A stretch of 64,000 nt of DNA from Streptomyces sp. NBC_01549 (lineage in GTDB: Bacteria > Actinomycetota > Actinomycetes > Streptomycetales > Streptomycetaceae): NCBI RefSeq assembly GCF_026339955.1, contig NZ_JAPEPW010000001.1, forward strand, positions 1,240,001-1,304,000, given 5' to 3'. The notes below the pieces were generated by a model. The model was not told the DNA's origin and searched no databases. It saw only the letters and a program-made list of their open reading frames with translations. Of this stretch, positions 1 through 14,743 are shown in pieces (the stretch's first letter is position 1; each line of letters starts with the position of its first letter). The translations under genes were made by a program, and so were the position numbers.

Positions 1-1529
1 TCGCCGCCGCCCGTACCCCCGAAGTGGACAGGGTCCTCGCTCGCCATCCGCTGCGTGAGCTGGTCAGCCGCTCGCAGCCGTTGCCCCTGCTGGTGGAACG
101 CGAGCGGGCGCTGTACGGCTCCTGGTACGAGTTCTTTCCACGTTCGGAGAGCGGATATCTCGATCCGCCGGTGCACGGCACCTTCCGCAGCGCCGCCGAA
201 CGGCTGCCCGCCATCGCGCGGATGGGCTTCGACGTCGTGTATCTGCCGCCGATCCATCCCATCGGGACCACCTATCGCAAGGGGCCCGACAACACGCTCT
301 CGGCGGGGGCCTACGACGTCGGTGTGCCGTGGGCGATCGGATCTCCGGAGGGCGGGCACGACGCCGTTCATCCGGACCTCGGCACGATCGACGACTTCGA
401 CGCCTTCGTGAGGCGGGCGGAGCGGGAGGGGCTGGAGATCGCTCTCGACTTCGCACTGCAGTGCTCTCCGGACCATCCCTGGGTGGAGAAGCACCCCGAG
501 TGGTTCCATCACCGGGCGGACGGGTCGATCGCGTACGCGGAGAATCCGCCGAAGAAGTACCAGGACATCTATCCGATCGCCTTCGACCAGGACATGCCGG
601 GACTGGTCCAGGAGACGCTGCGGGTGCTGCGGTACTGGATGAGCCACGGCGTACGGATCTTCCGTGTCGACAACCCGCACACCAAGCCGGTGGTCTTCTG
701 GGAGCGGGTCATCGCGGACATCAACCGCACCGACCCGGACGTGATCTTCCTGGCCGAGGCGTTCACCCGGCCCGCGATGATGCGCACGCTGGGGGCCGTC
801 GGCTTCCAGCAGTCGTACACCTATTTCACCTGGCGCAACACGAAGGAGGAGCTCACCGATTACCTCGGTGAGCTGTCGGGGGAGGCGGCCGCTCACATGC
901 GGCCCAACTTCTTCGTCAACACCCCTGACATCCTGCACGAGTTCCTTCAGCACGGCGGGCGGCCGGCCTTCGAGCTACGTGCGGTGCTCGCCGCGACACT
1001 GTCTCCGACCTGGGGCGTCTACAGCGGATTCGAGCTCTGTGAGAACACCCCGCTGCGTGCGGGCAGCGAAGAGTACCTGAACTCCGAGAAGTACCAACTG
1101 CGTCCGCGGGATTGGGAGTCGGCGGAGCGGGAGGGTCGTAGCATCGCGCCGTTGCTGGGTGCGCTCAACACCATCCGGCGGCGCAGCCCGGCCTTGCGCC
1201 AGTTGCGCGACCTTCACTTCCACCACACGGACAAGGACGCGGTGATCGCCTACTCGAAGTCGGTCACGGACGGGAGCGGATCGAACACGGTTGTGGTGGT
1301 GGTCAACCTCGACCCCCACCACACCCAGGAGGCGACGGTCTCGTTGGACATGCCGCAACTCGGCCTGGACTGGCACGAGTCCGTGCCGGTGCGCGACGAG
1401 CTCACCGGCGAGACCTACAACTGGGGCAGGGCCAACTATGTGCGTCTTGAGCCAGGGCATAGCCCCGCGCACATCCTCACCGTCCTGCGACCGTCCTCAC
1501 CGCAGATCGGAGGGTCACCCACCACATGA
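1..1529 (+). CDS. glgE: GlgE alpha-1,4-glucan:maltose-1-phosphate maltosyltransferase, 5' partial
   Basis: GlgE (GH13_3) transfers maltosyl units from maltose-1-phosphate onto alpha-1,4-glucan in the cytoplasm. The frame is open to the left edge (first full codon at position 3), so about 170 N-terminal residues of the usual ~670 lie outside the window. Seen: the GH13 barrel with the nucleophile Asp in FRVDNPHTK (codon 669-671) and the acid/base Glu in LAEAFTRP (codon 756-758), followed by a C-terminal beta domain ending near 1520. The stop TGA (1527-1529) overlaps the treS start as ATGA, implying translational coupling. The next three genes complete the GlgE pathway, which supports this identity over a generic amylase. 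Confidence 0.95.
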
Positions 1530-7568: not shown

Positions 7569-9848
7569 TCAGACGGTCGCCGCCCGCAGCGCCTGAGGCA
7601 GCTCCCCCGTGTACACGATCCCCAGCGCCTGCGTCGCCCGCGTCAGCGCCACGTACAGGTCGCTCGTGCCGTACCGCGCCGGTTCGACCACGAGGACGGA
7701 GTCGAATTCCAGCCCCTTGGCCTGGCGGGGGTCGAGGAGGACGACCGTCCGGGTCAGGTCGGGCTCCTCCCCCGCCGTCACGTCCTCCAGCCGGTCCGCG
7801 AGCGAGGTGTGCAGTTCGCGGGGTGCGATCACCGCGAGTCGCCCCTCGGCGGGGGTCAGTTCGGCGACGGCCTTCGCGACGGTGCCGGGCAGGTCGTCCC
7901 CGGCGGCGCGGGCCCAGGGCCGTACGCCCGTCGAACGCACCGAGCGCGGCGGCTCGAAGTCCGGGTGCCGCGCGCGCAGGACGCCCGCCGCCACGTCCAT
8001 GATCTCGGACGGGGTGCGGTAGTTGACGGCGAGGCGCTTGTGCTCCCAGCGGTCCTCGACGTAGGGGGTGAGGATCTCCGACCAGGATCCCACTCCGGCC
8101 GCCTCGGCGGTCTGCGCGGGGTCGCCGACCAGGGTCATCGAGCGGGTCGGGCTGCGCCGCATCAGCAGGCGCCAGGCCATCGGCGAGAGTTCCTGTGCCT
8201 CGTCGACGATGATGTGGCCGAACGCCCACGTCCGGTCGGCCGCCGCGCGTTCGGCGGCGCTGCGGTGGTCGTCCTCCTCGTGCCGCTCGGCCATCCGCTC
8301 GGCGTCGATGATGTTGTGCGCGGACAGGATCTCGGAGTCCTCCTCGTCCTTGTCCTCGAACTCGTAGGTACGGGAGGCGTAGGACACGTCCAGCACGCCC
8401 TGCGCGTACGCCACCTGGGCGCGGCGTTCCTGGTCGGCGAGGGCGCGGGCGACGCGGTCGTCCTCGCCGAGCAGTTCGGCGGCCTCGTCGAGGAGGGGAA
8501 CGTCGGCGGTGGTCCAGGACAGGGTGACCGGGCGGCGGATCGCGGCGGCGTCCTCGTCCGGGACATATCCCTCGGGGTCCGCGAGGAAGTCGGCGACCAG
8601 GCGCTGCGGGGTCAGCCGCGGCCACAGCTGGTCGATGGCCGACCAGACCTCGGGGTTCTCGGCGAGGTCGTCACGGATCTGGGTGATGTCGCTCGGGTCG
8701 AGCAGGTTCGAACCGTCGAAAAGGTCGGTGCCGATGCGCTCGGCCAGCATGTCGGTGAGCGTGTTGAGGATGTGGCCCTCGAAGTACTCGCGGGCCACGT
8801 TGTGCGGCAGTTTCGCCTCGCGGGTACGGTCGCGGGCGACCTGGACGAGCCCGGCGTCGAGCATCAGGATGTCCCGGTCGTGCTCGATCGCGATGACCGG
8901 GTCGGGCAGCGCCTGGCGGTCCTGGACCACGGCGGCGAGCACCTCGGCCATGTCGGCGCGGCCCTTCACGGCGGCGGCCCGCGGGGTGTCGGTGGCGGTC
9001 GCCCTGACGCCGGGGAACAGTTCGCCGACGGTCGTGAGCAGCACGCCCGTCTCGCCGAGCGAGGGCAGTACCTCGCCGATGTAACCGAGGAAGGCCGGGT
9101 TGGGGCCGACGATCAGGACGGCGCGCTTCGCCAGCAGTTCCCGGTACTCGTACAGCAGGTACGCGGCCCTGTGCAGCGCCACGGCCGTCTTTCCGGTGCC
9201 GGGGCCGCCCTCGACGACCAGCACGCCCTTGTGCGGGGCGCGAATGATCCGGTCCTGTTCGGCCTGGATGGTCTGCACGATGTCGCTCATGCGGCCGGTG
9301 CGCGCCGAGTTCAGCGCGGCCAGTAGTACGGCGTCGCCGGTCGGGTCCTCGTGGCCGGTGCGCTCGTGGTCGCCGAGGTCGAGGATCTCGTCGTGCAGGT
9401 CGGTCACCCGGCGGCCGTCGGTGGTGATGTGCCGGCGGCGGCGCAGGTCCATCGGCGTGTGGCCGGTGGCGAGGTAGAAGGGGCGGGCGACCGGGGCCCG
9501 CCAGTCGATGAGGATGGGGGTGTGATCGGTGTCGCCGGCGCGGATGCCGATGCGGCCGATGTGATGGCTGACGCCGGAGGTGAGGTCGATCCGGCCGAAG
9601 CAGAGCGAGCCGTCCACGGCGTTCAGCGCGGCGAGCAGGCCCGAGCGCTCGGCGACCAGCACGTCCCGTTCGAGCCTGGCCTGCATGGGCGTGCTGCCCT
9701 GCGCGAGCGCGTCGCCGACGGAGGCCTCGGTGTCGCCTCGCAGCACGTCCACGCGTGCGTACAACCCGTCGATGAATTCCTGCTCGTGCAGCAATTCATC
9801 GTCGGGAAATCCTGTGGTGCCCTCTGCGTTTGAGCCCCTGTTTGACAA
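7569..9848 (-). CDS. helD: HelD-family RNA polymerase-associated helicase (UvrD/Rep-like)
   Basis: 759 aa SF1 ATPase. HelD proteins pull stalled RNA polymerase off DNA and recycle it; some actinobacterial relatives (HelR) give rifamycin tolerance. Seen: N-terminal coiled region (DELLHEQEFIDGLYARVD), FGRIDL and IDWRAPVARPFY signature, Walker A GGPGTGKTAVAL near 215, Walker B IIVDEAQELS, and C-terminal helicase motifs including DPRQAKGLEFD and VALTRA. Start is TTG 9848, weakly preceded by GGAGCGGAA. A minus-strand promoter TTGCGC-18 bp-TATATT (-35 at 9947-9952, -10 at 9923-9928) would give a ~70-nt leader. I saw no rifamycin-associated element, so HelD rather than HelR is only a guess. Confidence 0.88.
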   Translation of the reverse strand: MSNRGSNAEGTTGFPDDELLHEQEFIDGLYARVDVLRGDTEASVGDALAQGSTPMQARLERDVLVAERSGLLAALNAVDGSLCFGRIDLTSGVSHHIGRIGIRAGDTDHTPILIDWRAPVARPFYLATGHTPMDLRRRRHITTDGRRVTDLHDEILDLGDHERTGHEDPTGDAVLLAALNSARTGRMSDIVQTIQAEQDRIIRAPHKGVLVVEGGPGTGKTAVALHRAAYLLYEYRELLAKRAVLIVGPNPAFLGYIGEVLPSLGETGVLLTTVGELFPGVRATATDTPRAAAVKGRADMAEVLAAVVQDRQALPDPVIAIEHDRDILMLDAGLVQVARDRTREAKLPHNVAREYFEGHILNTLTDMLAERIGTDLFDGSNLLDPSDITQIRDDLAENPEVWSAIDQLWPRLTPQRLVADFLADPEGYVPDEDAAAIRRPVTLSWTTADVPLLDEAAELLGEDDRVARALADQERRAQVAYAQGVLDVSYASRTYEFEDKDEEDSEILSAHNIIDAERMAERHEEDDHRSAAERAAADRTWAFGHIIVDEAQELSPMAWRLLMRRSPTRSMTLVGDPAQTAEAAGVGSWSEILTPYVEDRWEHKRLAVNYRTPSEIMDVAAGVLRARHPDFEPPRSVRSTGVRPWARAAGDDLPGTVAKAVAELTPAEGRLAVIAPRELHTSLADRLEDVTAGEEPDLTRTVVLLDPRQAKGLEFDSVLVVEPARYGTSDLYVALTRATQALGIVYTGELPQALRAATV

Positions 9849-9871
9849 TTCCGCTCCCGGCCGGATATACT
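9842..9871 (+). promoter_or_regulatory. near-consensus promoter TTGACA-18-TATACT
   Basis: -35 TTGACA (9842-9847), 18-bp spacer, -10 TATACT (9866-9871): the closest match to the housekeeping (HrdB) consensus that I saw in this window. It points away from helD and overlaps the helD start codon. The predicted start of transcription is A9878 or G9879, inside the small palindrome GTTCAGTGAAC (9874-9884). Confidence 0.75.
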
Positions 9872-9922
9872 GCGTTCAGTGAACTTCTCCGCGACCAATT
9901 CTTCTGAAGTCGCGAATCATTC

Positions 9923-9952
9923 AATATACGCAAGGAAATCCCCCGAGCGCAA
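9923..9952 (-). promoter_or_regulatory. putative helD promoter TTGCGC-18-TATATT
   Basis: On the minus strand, -35 TTGCGC (complement of 9947-9952), an 18-bp spacer and -10 TATATT (complement of 9923-9928) predict transcription from about 9916 toward helD. The -35 box lies in the loop of the 9935-9968 terminator hairpin, so this promoter and the plus-strand unit are interleaved. Confidence 0.45.
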
Positions 9953-9968
9953 TTGCCCGGGGGATTTC
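9935..9968. terminator. 11-bp intrinsic terminator
   Basis: GAAATCCCCCG pairs perfectly with CGGGGGATTTC around a 12-nt loop, with short T-rich tails in both directions. It can end the plus-strand small RNA and the minus-strand thioredoxin transcript. Confidence 0.8.
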
Positions 9969-10015
9969 TTGTAGTTCCGCTGGATATCTACGTGGTCCGA
10001 GCACGTCGGACCACG

Positions 10016-10348
10016 TCAGAGCACCTCGGACAGCTCCTCCAGCAGCCGGCGCTTCGGCCGGGCGCCCACCATCGACTTCACCGGCTCACCGCCGCGAAAG
10101 ACCATGAACGTGGGCATCGACAGCACCCGGTAGGCGTTCGTCGTCAGCGGGTTCGTGTCCACGTCCAGCTGGACCACCTTGAGCCGCTCGCCCTCCTCGG
10201 CCGCCAGGGCGCTGAGCACCGGCCCCATCTGCCGGCACGGCGGGCACCAGTCGGCCGTGAACTCCACCAGCACCGGGAGCTCGGCGCCGATCACCTCCGC
10301 CTCGAAGTCCGCGTCCGTCACCGAAGCCACGCCTGCCACCTTGATCAC
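10016..10348 (-). CDS. thioredoxin, WCPPC active site
   Basis: 110 aa single-domain thioredoxin for cytoplasmic disulfide reduction. Seen: the active site ADWCPPCRQMGP (Pro-Pro instead of the usual Gly-Pro between the cysteines) and the cis-Pro loop SMPTFMVF. Start GTG 10348 is chosen because GGGAGG lies about 9 nt upstream and it overlaps the MerR stop as GTGA, and because it gives normal thioredoxin length; longer frames add an Ala/Gly/Arg-rich stretch that is MerR sequence in another frame. It is co-transcribed with the MerR gene. The CPPC site should shift redox potential relative to CGPC; the target is unknown. Confidence 0.9.
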   Translation of the reverse strand: MIKVAGVASVTDADFEAEVIGAELPVLVEFTADWCPPCRQMGPVLSALAAEEGERLKVVQLDVDTNPLTTNAYRVLSMPTFMVFRGGEPVKSMVGARPKRRLLEELSEVL

Positions 10349-10773
10349 CGCGTCCGCCCTCCCAGTTCGCATACGGGTTCCGGGCCGCCCGGAACCTCCG
10401 CCTCGGCCGCCAGCTCGTCGCGCGCCCGCTCGGCCCGCGCCAGCTGCGCGCCGACCTCGGCCCGTACGACCCGCAACTCGTCGATCAGCGCGTCGAGCTC
10501 GCCCAGCTTGCGCCGGTAGACCGCGAGCGAGGCCGGACAGGAGTCCCCCTCCGGGTGCCCCGCCCGCAGACACTCCACGAAGGGCCGGGTCTCCTCCAGG
10601 TCGAACCCGAAGTCCTGCAGCGTCCTGATCTGCCGCAGCAGCCGCAGGTCGTGCTCGTCGTACGTCCGGTACCCGTTCTCGCCCCGCCGCGCGGGCAACA
10701 GTCCCCGTGACTCGTAGTACCGAAGAGTCCGCGTGGTGGTCCCGGCCCGCGCCGCCAGCTCGCCGATTCGCAT
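10345..10773 (-). CDS. MerR-family transcriptional regulator
   Basis: 142 aa. Seen: N-terminal winged HTH MRIGELAARAGTTTRTLRYYESRGLLPARR, then the wing and a dimerisation helix (FGFDLEETRPFVECL, LGELDALIDELRVVRAEV). One or two cysteines (VECLRAGHPEGDSCPASL) could bind metal or thiol ligands. Start is ATG 10773; a longer frame to 10869 runs through the promoter. The start codon lies 7 nt after a -10 box in a MerR-type promoter with a 19-bp spacer (10781-10811), so autoregulation and leaderless translation are likely. The coupled thioredoxin gene suggests a thiol or redox signal. Confidence 0.9.
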   Translation of the reverse strand: MRIGELAARAGTTTRTLRYYESRGLLPARRGENGYRTYDEHDLRLLRQIRTLQDFGFDLEETRPFVECLRAGHPEGDSCPASLAVYRRKLGELDALIDELRVVRAEVGAQLARAERARDELAAEAEVPGGPEPVCELGGRTR

Positions 10774-11062: not shown

Positions 11063-12581
11063 GGGTCTTCGAATTTAGTGGGGGTGTGCCTCCCGTCGGC
11101 TTCGCCGGGTGGTTGCGCAGCGTGAGCGGAGGCGTTGGTTCGCTCGGTTGCGGAAGCCGAAGGCGTTACGCGCTTCGAGCTTGATGAGGCGGTTGTTGCC
11201 CTCCGAGGCGGCGTTGGTGATCCCGGTGGTCAGGTAGGTCTCGATGCCGTCCCACCACTGCTCGATGGTCTCGGCGAGGGTGACGAGTTCGGGCAGGTGA
11301 GCGTGGTCGGCGACGTGGGCGAAGAAGCGGTGGCGGGCGGTGGAGATCGCGGAGTGGTCGGGGGTGACGTGCCTGCGGGTGACGGTCAGGCCCAGGAGGT
11401 CGCGCAGGAGTTCCTTGCCCTGCCAGGCCGCATAGATCTGTCGGCCGTAGGTCCCCATGTACTCCAACTCGGTCTTGAGGAGCTCGCGTTGTTCGTCGGT
11501 GAGGTCTTCCTTGTTGCGGCGCAGGAGCTTGCGGACGCTGTAGATGCTGTCGCCCTTGCGGGCCCGGCGGCCGTGCTGTTTCCAGGTGAGGCGTCGGCGC
11601 AGGTCGGCGAGGTGGCGCTGGGCGAGTTGCACGATGTGGAAGCAGTCCACGACCACCGCCGCGTGCGGCAGGGCACGGTGGACGGCGGCGCGGAAGGTGG
11701 AGCACAGGTCGATGGCGACGTAGCGGACCTGCTCGCGCCAGGCGGCGGGCCGGGCCGTCAGCCAGTCGGCGACGGAGGCGGAGTTGCGGCCCTCGACCTG
11801 GCCGAACAGGCCGCGCCCGCCGATCGCGTCGACGAAGCCGATGTGCCAGGCGTCCGCGACCAGCTCCCACTTCTCCGTGTCCGGGTTCTGCTCCCACACC
11901 GGCTTACCCCGCCGGGTCTCGTCGATCCCGATCGCCTCGGTCACCGGCGGCTCCTCGGGCAGGACCTTCGCGGCGTAGTCCTCGAAGCAGTGCTGCACGA
12001 TCGGCCAGGACAGGCCCAGATCCCGGCCGGCCTGCACCACCGATCGCCCGCCGTCACACACCGCGGCCCCGGCCGCCCGCCGAAGCGCCCCGGTCGTACG
12101 CATCCGCGCGGGTACCTGGCCTATGGACTCGGTGAACGAGCGGCGGTCGCAGTCGAGTTCGGTGCAGTGCCAGCGTGCCTTGCGCCACCGGATACTCACC
12201 GGGCGCCCGCCGCAGGACAGGTGTCTGGGGGCGGTGGTGCGGTAGTCCTTCAGCCGGGTGGAGAAAACCCCGCACGAGGGGCAGGCCCTCGCGGACTCCT
12301 CGTTCGTCACGACGTATACCGTCGATCCGCCTGCCTTGTCGTCCTTGACCTGCGTCACACTCACCCCCTCCAGCCCAAGCAGTCGCGTCGCAGCCTCGTT
12401 GGTCCCGGTATCGTCGATGCTCAAGCCCGTGGGTTCTTCATGATCGGTTGCCTAGACAACAACCATGATCACGAAGACCCGCGGGCTCCTTGCGTCCAGG
12501 CCACCCACACCCCAGGCCCATCACGCTCGGTGACTGAACGTCAGGCCGTCACCGCCGCACCCCCACTAAATTCGAAGACCC
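11063..12581 (-). mobile_element. complete ISL3-family insertion sequence (1519 bp)
   Basis: Bounded by perfect 24-bp terminal inverted repeats, 11063-11086 and 12558-12581, each beginning GGGTCTTCGAATTTAG when read inward, and flanked by the 8-bp duplication GCATGTCC on both sides. One transposase gene fills it. Perfect repeats and duplication suggest a recent insertion. It landed 25 bp beyond the stop codon of the neighbouring tnpB gene. Confidence 0.95.
11075..12424 (-). CDS. ISL3-family DDE transposase
   Basis: 449 aa. Seen: N-terminal zinc-finger-like region (CPSCGVFSTRLKDYR ... CTELDCDRRSF), HTH segment, then the DDE catalytic core with Asp in IGIDETRRGKP, Asp in VVVDCFHIVQLAQ and Glu in NAASEGNNRLIKLEARNAFG, the conserved ISL3 C-terminal motif. 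Start is TTG 12424 with no good ribosome site. The TAA stop (11075-11077) lies inside the left terminal repeat. No frameshift or missing catalytic residue is visible, so it may be active. Confidence 0.94.
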   Translation of the reverse strand: MSIDDTGTNEAATRLLGLEGVSVTQVKDDKAGGSTVYVVTNEESARACPSCGVFSTRLKDYRTTAPRHLSCGGRPVSIRWRKARWHCTELDCDRRSFTESIGQVPARMRTTGALRRAAGAAVCDGGRSVVQAGRDLGLSWPIVQHCFEDYAAKVLPEEPPVTEAIGIDETRRGKPVWEQNPDTEKWELVADAWHIGFVDAIGGRGLFGQVEGRNSASVADWLTARPAAWREQVRYVAIDLCSTFRAAVHRALPHAAVVVDCFHIVQLAQRHLADLRRRLTWKQHGRRARKGDSIYSVRKLLRRNKEDLTDEQRELLKTELEYMGTYGRQIYAAWQGKELLRDLLGLTVTRRHVTPDHSAISTARHRFFAHVADHAHLPELVTLAETIEQWWDGIETYLTTGITNAASEGNNRLIKLEARNAFGFRNRANQRLRSRCATTRRSRREAHPH

Positions 12582-12614: not shown

Positions 12615-13859
12615 TCAGTCTGCCGAGCTTGCACAACGGGCATCACTGGCGGTGATGGTGCGTCTGCGTCCAACCCCACCTCGCTGTCGCGGGGGTGGGG
12701 CAGGGGCCGTTGACTGGGCCCCGCGTCGCCACAACTCCCACGCACGTGCGCGGATGTTGCGGGAGCCATTCCGGTCTGCGTGATCAACGAATCCGCAGTT
12801 CCGGCATGCGAACCAGGCCTGGGAGACCCGGTTCGCCTTGTCGATGTGCCCGCACTCGGCGCAGGTGCGCGAGGTGTACGCCGGATCGACATGCACCACC
12901 GGCACCCCGGCCTTGCGGGCCTTGTACGCGATGAACTGCCCGAGCTGACGGAAGGACCAGCTGGAGTGGGTGGCCCGTTGGGGCTTGCGAAGCCGTACCC
13001 GTTCACGGATCCCTGTCAGGTCTTCCAGGGCGATCCCGCGACCGGTGCGTTCTGCCTCAGCCACCACATGCTTCGCGATCTTGTGGTTGATGTCCCGCGC
13101 CCGCCGGGCCTCCTTGCGCCGTCGTTTCTTCAGGCGCCGTTTGGCGGACGGGGTGTTCTTCTTCTGCAGTTTGGTGCGCAGGTCGCGCTCGCGCAGGCGG
13201 ATGCGGTTCAGCTCGCGTCCGGCCATGATCTCGCCGTCACTGGTGGTGGCGATGTTCACGATTCCCAGGTCGATGCCGAGGAAGTCCACCGGACCGGTGT
13301 TGAGCGGCGCTTCAGGGATCTCGCAGGTGGCGTTCAAAAACCACATGCCGTCCCGGTACAGCAGGTCGGACTCGCCCTTGCGGTAGAGGGCCAGAGCTGC
13401 CAGATGCTCCGGGGATGCAACAAAAGCGACGTTCTTTACCCGTCCGCAAACTGTCCAGATAGACACCCGCCGATCGGGAATCAGCCAGGACAACATCCGG
13501 TCGTCGTAGGGCTGTGCGCCCTCCGGACGGAAGAAAATTGGTTTCTCCGTGGCCTTGCGATACCGCTTCGACCCCGGTCTGCCCAGGTTTCCGGCACCCA
13601 GATTCACCTTCAGCACAGCGTACGCGTCGCACGTTTTCTTGATCACGTGCTGGGCTGCCTGCGCCCCCAGACCCCACCGCGCCCTGATCTCGCCGTAAAC
13701 GTGCTCGCGCAGTGTGAAGTTCTTCTTCACATCCTTCTCGAATGCAACCTGGCCCGCCCAAGTGGCTGCTTCGTTGCAGGCGCGCAGTGTTGCCTCAAGT
13801 GCCGCCGCTTGCACGGGCGTCGGCAGCAGCTTCACCTGCACCACAAGCTTCACACGCAT
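12615..13859 (-). CDS. tnpB: TnpB RNA-guided nuclease (IS200/IS605 or IS1341 type)
   Basis: 414 aa from ATG 13859 (MRVKLVVQVKLLPTPVQ, the usual TnpB start); an upstream in-frame extension to 13976 looks untranslated. Seen: N-terminal OrfB_IS605 domain; RuvC-like Asp in GIDLGIVNIATTSDG, Glu in ALEDLTGI, final Asp in DHADRNGSRNI; zinc ribbon CAECG ... CRNCG. All catalytic residues are present. No tnpA lies nearby, so this is a lone-TnpB element. TnpB uses an omega RNA that covers the tnpB 3' end and the element's right end; the ISL3 insertion 25 bp past the stop must split that region. The C-terminus is Pro/Arg/Gly-rich beyond the RuvC domain. Confidence 0.93.
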   Translation of the reverse strand: MRVKLVVQVKLLPTPVQAAALEATLRACNEAATWAGQVAFEKDVKKNFTLREHVYGEIRARWGLGAQAAQHVIKKTCDAYAVLKVNLGAGNLGRPGSKRYRKATEKPIFFRPEGAQPYDDRMLSWLIPDRRVSIWTVCGRVKNVAFVASPEHLAALALYRKGESDLLYRDGMWFLNATCEIPEAPLNTGPVDFLGIDLGIVNIATTSDGEIMAGRELNRIRLRERDLRTKLQKKNTPSAKRRLKKRRRKEARRARDINHKIAKHVVAEAERTGRGIALEDLTGIRERVRLRKPQRATHSSWSFRQLGQFIAYKARKAGVPVVHVDPAYTSRTCAECGHIDKANRVSQAWFACRNCGFVDHADRNGSRNIRARAWELWRRGAQSTAPAPPPRQRGGVGRRRTITASDARCASSAD

Positions 13860-13895
13860 GACGCTAGCCGGACGTTCCAGCCTCGCACATTCGAA

Positions 13896-13920
13896 CACAG
13901 GAAATTTCAGCCTTCCTGTG
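13896..13920. repeat. hairpin near the left end of the tnpB element
   Basis: CACAGGAA pairs with TTCCTGTG (8 bp, 9-nt loop) 37 bp upstream of the tnpB start. Subterminal palindromes are transposition signals in IS200/IS605-type elements, so this may mark its left end; the exact boundary is not resolved. Confidence 0.5.
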
Positions 13921-13972
13921 ACTATAAAGTCCGGTCCGAGAATCCCATGGGCCCAGAAGCGCCCCGCAGGAC

Positions 13973-14743
13973 TCACGAAACCACGATCACACCCGCGGAC
14001 TCCTCGACCTCCAGCAGCGACGCGCTGTGCCGCTCCTCCTCGAACGCCTTGCGTCCGCCGCGCAGTCCGAAGAGGCGTTTGGCGAGGGCGATGTAGAGGA
14101 CGGCGAGGATGTTGAGGACCAGGGTGGCGACCTTCAAGTAGCTGACGTGCTCGGTGAGTTCGTAGATCTCCAGGGGCAGGAAGGCGGCGGTGGCGACCAC
14201 CGTCAGATACTCCGCCCAGCGCTTGGCGTACCAGAGGCCGCCCGCCTCGACGAGTTCGATCAGCGCGTACGCCAGCAGCAGCGCGGCCACCAGGACCAGC
14301 GTGGAGTGCTTGTAGCCGAAGGACTTCTGGATGGTGCCGACGACCGGCGAGTGGTCGAGGTCGTAGTGGAAGTGCTTGAAGACCGGCCGGAAGACGTCGA
14401 GGTTCTCGTCGAACAGCCGGCGCACCGCGTCCTGGCTGTTGCTAAATTTCCATACCGCTACGGCCACAAGCACGACGAACACCCCGCGCACGGCCCGTTC
14501 GATCGCCAGGAAGCGCAGGATGAACAGGTCCCGCAGCACCTTGCCGCGCGGTACCAGCGGCGCCTGCTCCGCGGGACCGGTTCCGTGCGGTTCGCCCAGC
14601 ACGAAGTCGCCGCAGCGCAGACAGCGCCAGGTCTCGCCGAGGCTCGTCTCGGCGCGCAGCCGCCGACGCAGTTCCGGCTCGTCGGGCGCGTACGTCACAT
14701 GGCCTTTGCGCGCGCATGTCCGCCGGTCCCAGTCGATCTTCAT
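13973..14743 (-). CDS. DUF2127-like integral membrane protein with Cys-rich N-terminus
   Basis: 256 aa. Seen: a soluble N-terminus with Cys/His positions (CARKGHVTY, then CLRCGDFVLGEPHG near 40) that could form a small zinc site, followed by about four membrane helices (AVRGVFVVLVAVAVW, TLVLVAALLLAYALIELVEA, LTVVATAAFLPLEIYEL, VATLVLNILAVLYIALAK). The GLWYAKRWAEYLTV segment and helix pattern recall DUF2127. Function is unknown. It is the first ordinary chromosomal gene right of the mobile DNA. Family assignment is from memory of the pattern. Confidence 0.75.
   Translation of the reverse strand: MKIDWDRRTCARKGHVTYAPDEPELRRRLRAETSLGETWRCLRCGDFVLGEPHGTGPAEQAPLVPRGKVLRDLFILRFLAIERAVRGVFVVLVAVAVWKFSNSQDAVRRLFDENLDVFRPVFKHFHYDLDHSPVVGTIQKSFGYKHSTLVLVAALLLAYALIELVEAGGLWYAKRWAEYLTVVATAAFLPLEIYELTEHVSYLKVATLVLNILAVLYIALAKRLFGLRGGRKAFEEERHSASLLEVEESAGVIVVS

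Follow-up and report, generated by a model that had tools for sequence, protein, structure and literature searches.

The best parallel to the arrangement described here is the rifampicin alarm of Bacillus subtilis helD, the antisense control of which, through convergent promoters, was published in January 2026 (PMC12802891). In that system a sense and an antisense promoter have starts that lie 39 bp apart, the antisense RNA is about 90–94 nt long, and helD is repressed by transcriptional interference; rifampicin stalls polymerase at the antisense promoter, the busier of the two, and thereby induces helD, and shortening the spacing by 17 bp abolishes the alarm (PMC12802891). The convergent layout is not used by all helD genes according to the discussion of that paper, which also describes the genes that protect Actinobacteria against rifampicin, helD included, as carrying a rifamycin-associated element (RAE). 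RAE-controlled helR is known from M. abscessus and S. venezuelae (PMC10719064, PMC8655204). Interference between convergent promoters is known in addition from phage 186 and Shigella icsA (cited in PMC12802891), where a strong promoter represses a weak facing one, as we propose below for Streptomyces helD; the genes concerned are unrelated to helD.

The Streptomyces helD locus resembles that of B. subtilis in several respects. The gene is again helD, a candidate antisense promoter in its 5′ leader faces the sense promoter, the predicted starts are about 40 bp apart and the predicted antisense RNA is about 93 nt long (39 bp and about 90–94 nt in B. subtilis), and a terminator downstream is able to serve the upstream gene as well. 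The antisense promoter, which is the stronger by measurement in B. subtilis, is the nearer to consensus in most Streptomyces. The sequence-level marks of the B. subtilis system, facing sense and antisense promoters with starts about 39 bp apart (40 bp here), are found at Streptomyces helD. The two also differ: B. subtilis has a Class I, Firmicutes HelD and Streptomyces a Class II protein, the antisense spacer is 19 bp there and 18 bp here, and in Streptomyces the helD start codon shares bases with the antisense −35 and the sense −35 spans the loop of the terminator. Finally, the rifampicin response is demonstrated for B. subtilis and proposed for Streptomyces.

A preliminary description of this DNA had supposed that control of an RNA polymerase recycling factor by an antisense RNA would be new, and the B. 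subtilis report corrects this. The genome survey in PMC12802891 retained only promoter pairs free of overlap with other annotated regions, and the Streptomyces layout may have escaped it because its antisense −35 runs into the helD start codon. When titles and abstracts were searched for antisense transcription or facing promoters at the helD of Streptomyces, PMC12802891 was the one relevant paper among the matches listed, and no Class II actinobacterial helD with a convergent layout and without an RAE was found among them. The passages searched in PMC4895711, PMC4681348, PMC8079986, PMC8780764, PMC11678152 and PMC3765725 and in the RIP-seq study PMC11077062 place no transcript here (the antisense start may be listed in their supplementary tables), and no mention of scr5438 or scr5439 was found in the literature searched.

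The helD locus and its facing promoter-like sites

The window, by which we mean the whole 64-kb stretch of DNA analysed, carries helD on the minus strand at 7569–9848. The gene starts with TTG, has TCA as its second codon and encodes a 759-residue RNA polymerase recycling factor that matches the HelD of PDB entry 6yxu over residues 16–755 (E 2e-177) and that we therefore take to be of the Class II type; the 6yxu chain is presumably that of M. smegmatis. The NCBIfam HelD and HelR models match the protein, all of them below cut-off (motor_HelR_2, 734 bits against 1100; motor_HelR, 426 bits against 750), and it is thus not a HelR by that measure. Its neighbors are trx, a MerR regulator and glgB. 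The thioredoxin gene trx (10016–10351, minus strand, start approximate; Pfam Thioredoxin, 4e-26) lies immediately upstream, and the helD-trx pair matches S. coelicolor SCO5439 (755 aa) beside trxA2/SCO5438; we take the synteny with glgB to hold in S. coelicolor as well. Two transposase-like frames on the minus strand (11075–12424 and 12615–13976; ISL3-like and IS605 OrfB-like by eye) adjoin the MerR-trx-helD group.

On the plus strand, opposite helD, a candidate antisense promoter occupies 9842–9871, with a −35 of TTGACA (9842–9847), a spacer of 18 bp and a −10 of TATACT (9866–9871), as the preliminary description had it. It is the one site on either strand of the window that agrees with at least 10 of 12 consensus positions when spacers of 16–18 bp are allowed and the −10 has A in second and T in sixth place; the interval 9300–10500 holds one promoter-like site against a mean of 0.1 in shuffled sequence. 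The antisense start is predicted at 9878, the seventh base past the −10. The facing helD promoter, on the minus strand at 9923–9952, has a −35 of TTGCGC (9952–9947), again an 18-bp spacer, and a −10 of TATATT (9928–9923), and its start is predicted at 9917, the sixth base past the −10. The predicted starts are therefore 40 bp apart, both bases counted, and the overlap of the antisense RNA with the helD leader that had been described exists at about 40 nt rather than 38. The overlap of the antisense promoter with the helD start codon (9848–9846) likewise stands, two bases being shared with the −35, and the helD ribosome-binding site, GGGAG at 9854–9858 on the minus strand, falls within the antisense promoter spacer.

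Two inverted repeats lie downstream of the antisense start. An 8-bp repeat at 9888–9916 (arms 9888–9895 and 9909–9916), which is the hairpin previously noted, can form in the antisense RNA and also in the predicted helD mRNA, there at the 5′ end. A terminator-like stem-loop at 9935–9968 (arms 9935–9948 and 9955–9968) is symmetric, folds on either strand and would be usable by the antisense RNA on the plus strand and by trx, whose transcript would end there, on the minus strand. Its stem had been given as 11 bp, and is instead one of 14 positions, 13 of them paired and one an A-C mismatch; the helD −35, which had been placed in the loop, spans the loop and also reaches the inner end of the 5′ arm. 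A simple terminator scan listed nothing in the region, so this stem was not picked up, probably because its T run lies partly within the symmetric stem. From the promoter and the terminator we predict an antisense RNA, as-helD, of about 93 nt (9878–9970, plus strand), complementary to nucleotides 1–40 of the helD leader if both predicted starts are correct. As a conserved gene, a leaderless small protein encoded by as-helD can be dismissed: GTG at the predicted start opens a frame of 31 codons in the window, and a start codon is found there in only 43 of 109 orthologs, with frames of mixed length.

Control of this helD by an RAE was considered and rejected. The best match to the 19-bp RAE consensus between 9840 and 10040 is 11 of 19 positions, by a consensus that finds an element with one mismatch near the HelR gene of the same genome. 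That separate HelR (L142; 1218.9 bits against a cut-off of 750) lies outside the window, where a glycosyltransferase-like frame is followed by HelR (G000:C12:5555134-5558754; L142, L339). Of the RAE-like sequences in the genome, the one with a single mismatch, at C12:5558736, is in the glycosyltransferase-like frame (by eye), shortly before its probable start, and this is likely an RAE-controlled rifamycin resistance operon. The helD studied here is like the RAE-controlled helR genes (PMC10719064, PMC8655204) in encoding a Class II HelD-type actinobacterial protein tied to polymerase rescue; unlike them it has no RAE, and a separate HelR lies near the one-mismatch element. The organism would therefore have a HelR of the RAE type beside a HelD with convergent promoters, and since HelR has its own RAE-like element the helD in the window may not be the rifamycin-responsive copy.

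Conservation of the layout among Streptomyces

A protein search gave a HelD match in each of 131 Streptomyces genomes, at E of about 1e-45 or better in 122 and with weaker matches only in nine. Upstream regions were taken from 110 of the 122 (12 were left out) and 109 were analysed, L130 being dropped since it had no tblastn match. A DNA search of 200 genomes of the family gave matches in 49, and in most of the best of these the block of similarity begins within a few bases of the antisense −35. The groups A, B and C referred to below are an ordering by HelD similarity and not a tree, and the 109 orthologs are related, so that counts among them are not independent events. Named species with the group A form of the antisense promoter include, among the matches listed (80 of 118 stretches), S. 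scabiei 87.22, S. parvulus and S. glaucescens.

In 109 of 109 orthologs the 480-nt stretch holds a single TTGACA, which sits at the helD start, in frame and with no stop, and C[CT]CC, the complement of the ribosome-binding site, follows it at the same distance in all 109. Because the promoter analysis was anchored on these two elements, the anchor itself dictates TCA at codon 2 and the base that opens codon 3; what is free beyond it is that no ortholog lacks the anchor (0/109), that TTGACA occurs once per 480 nt and that it is in frame. The helD start codon is TTG in 108 orthologs and GTG in one. Codon 2 must be TCA because the TTGACA −35 is placed at the helD start and any other serine codon would break it, and TCA makes up only 9 of 747 serine codons in 30 partial helD sequences. 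Codon 3 is AAC in 66 orthologs, ACC in 27, ACT in 7, AAT in 4, AGC in 3 and ATC in 2, and thus the protein changes there while the promoter base is kept.

The remaining promoter elements were called as the best of several spacers, a procedure that favors agreement. The antisense spacer is 18 bp in 100 orthologs, 17 in seven and 16 in two; the antisense −10 fits TANNNT in 107 of 109; on the sense side, 105 have TATATT as their −10 and 106 a −35 that begins with TTG. If starts lie 6–7 bases past the −10, they are 39–45 bp apart in 96 orthologs and 50–55 bp apart in ten, none has 46–49 bp, and the other three are wide (61, 80 and 98 bp). Five group A orthologs with loop insertions (L039, L043, L044, L050 and L062) are all at 50–55 bp, where 41 bp is usual; that this wider class has about one additional helical turn is suggestive only. 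We know of no conserved 40-bp spacing in phage 186 or at Shigella icsA. The facing promoter-like sites, the distance between them and the terminator are features of the genus, and the failure of conservation by which the preliminary description proposed to judge its antisense unit did not occur, since both the boxes and their geometry are kept across Streptomyces. Comparative sequence gives good support to a conserved unit of antisense transcription that is interleaved with the helD promoter, and an antisense transcript at helD is probably real.

We think it likely that helD is controlled by interference between these two convergent promoters about 40 bp apart, and that the interference is relieved when initiating polymerase is blocked. 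The near-consensus antisense promoter would fire toward the weaker helD promoter and give a short transcript that stops in the terminator common to trx; any polymerase that occupied or departed from the antisense promoter would hinder helD initiation and clearance, so that helD would be low when polymerase is working normally. Rifamycins or other polymerase inhibitors would strike the busier antisense promoter first and lift the interference, and HelD, which frees stuck polymerase, would then be induced. A low level of the initiating nucleotide would be another candidate signal. By analogy with B. subtilis helD we infer that both promoters fire and interfere with each other, and that inhibiting polymerase relieves this. 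The antisense promoter is closer to consensus than the sense promoter in 78 of the 109 orthologs, equal in 18 and weaker in 13. In group C (42 of 109), however, the two promoters score much alike against the consensus (9.86 and 9.81), and this counts against the model, which wants the stronger promoter to be the antisense one. Also weighing against it are the three wide spacings, the antisense spacer of 18 bp where B. subtilis has 19, the better folding of the leader as the helD strand, the four helD-strand terminators, the separate HelR, the 17 of 61 genomes without the strict pattern and the 35 of 55 further loci without an antisense site (see above and below).

The hairpin, the terminator and the antisense RNA

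The preliminary description proposed that the antisense RNA itself controls helD. It might do so by pairing with the first 40 nt of the helD mRNA (kissing loops followed by decay) or by acting in trans. A number of features speak for such an RNA. At about 93 nt with its own terminator it resembles a classical small RNA, the segment 9878–9975 folds with a z-score of −5.0, and the 8-bp repeat is present in both RNAs. In addition, covariation in other Streptomyces, which had been put forward as a check, is found in both the hairpin and the terminator. Among 48 aligned group A sequences, 92% of the cells at paired positions are standard pairs, and 8 of 22 pairs have changes on both sides (3 of 8 in the hairpin and 5 of 14 in the terminator) where shuffles give 3.9, with none of 500 as high; further pair types number 19 against 16.7 expected, with 16 of 500 as high. 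Whichever way the pairing partners are slid in these sequences, fewer cells pair and the covariation score falls. In one ortholog (L011) the terminator stem has a largely different sequence and still encloses the CAATTG loop, which forms part of the helD −35.

The hairpin does not say which strand carries the functional RNA: with the stem register picked in each sequence for best pairing, it has no strand bias by G-U/A-C asymmetry (G-T 18, A-C 23). The leader segment folds better as the helD strand in 72 species and as the antisense strand in 24; the hairpin may therefore serve the helD mRNA, and part of its conservation may belong there. Rfam has no match at gathering score at the helD leader. 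The sole Rfam match in the window is a che1 RNA (RF02935; 36026–36125, minus strand, 90.6 bits).

Other features speak against an action of the antisense RNA on helD. It cannot cover the helD ribosome-binding site, since that site sits in the antisense promoter spacer, 5′ of the RNA start, and the start codon is uncovered as well; this geometry argues against a block of translation, and decay would be possible. The hairpin loop varies in length and in sequence, and the body of as-helD differs between species groups, whereas both promoters and their spacing are kept. Moreover, 19 of 109 orthologs (L079–L090, L092–L096, L115 and L136) have a strong plus-strand terminator-like hairpin followed by Ts just past the antisense start. 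These early terminators end 20–28 bases from that start and would leave a predicted antisense RNA of about 25–33 nt; in equal windows helD-strand terminators occur in 4 of 109 orthologs, all of them within the 19 and with poorer T runs. The early terminators point to real plus-strand transcription, and at the same time against a need for the full RNA. Because the RNA misses the ribosome-binding site, its body varies and 19 of 109 orthologs would cut it short, we regard transcriptional interference as the more likely regulator; the conserved interleaved unit of the preliminary description stands, and its RNA mechanism is in our view unlikely.

Association with helD and meaning of the convergent layout

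A strict form of the convergent pattern, TTGAC-N19-TANNNT-N35..62-ANNNTA-N17..19-NNNCAA, occurs once in the 12.6-Mb genome, at helD, and its reversed control does not occur. Across 61 Streptomyces genomes there are 44 matches in 44 genomes against four for the reversed control, 17 genomes being without the pattern. All but one of the 44 lie no more than 130 nt from the end of a HelD match; the last (in G235) is 378 nt from a HelD match that begins at residue 95. Further helD loci, hand-picked and possibly including paralogs (53 from other families and two from divergent Streptomyces), were searched for an antisense TTGAC[A/G]-16..19-TANNNT near the HelD start. It is found in 20 of 55 and missing at 35, with 0 of 55 in the sense orientation in the same region and 2 of 55 in a control region further upstream. 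In 12 of the 20 the base past the −35 permits an overlapping ATG or TTG start. The positives belong to families f1, f3, f19, f20, f21 and f39, and there are none in f6 (five loci), f15 (three), f30 (three) or the remaining families sampled.

The antisense promoter might be real and have nothing to do with polymerase inhibitors, serving instead to hold a bound polymerase as a roadblock or to insulate trx and helD from each other. The terminator common to trx suits this idea, and by the size of polymerase footprints the spacing would fit two head-to-head polymerases. We nevertheless consider it quite improbable, since in the 61 genomes every match to the strict pattern had a HelD match beside it, and an alarm for polymerase inhibitors with this layout is known for helD of another phylum (PMC12802891). 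Least probable is that the plus-strand boxes are by-products, TTGACA being forced by the helD start and second codon and the rest by the leader and terminator: it is true that the start codon shares bases with the −35 and that the spacer holds the ribosome-binding site, yet TCA, so rare among the serine codons of the partial helD sequences, is invariant at codon 2, the TANNNT −10 kept in 107 of 109 orthologs lies outside both start codon and ribosome-binding site, and early terminators favor the plus strand (19 against 4 of 109, equal windows).

Promoter interference thus remains our preferred reading of Streptomyces helD. Going further, we put forward tentatively, and with somewhat less than even confidence, the idea that head-to-head promoters about 40 bp apart recur, linked to helD in Firmicutes as well as in Actinomycetes, as a way to sense blocked initiating RNA polymerase without any protein, and that in Streptomyces this sensor is kept throughout the genus and built into the helD start codon. 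Streptomyces make and meet many polymerase inhibitors. Their non-HelR helD has the convergent layout where, from PMC12802891, an RAE would be expected. If the idea is true, two phyla gained or kept a polymerase-inhibitor alarm without a dedicated sensor protein, it becomes possible to test how the distance between promoters sets a sensor of this kind, and Streptomyces would be a ready reporter for new polymerase inhibitors.
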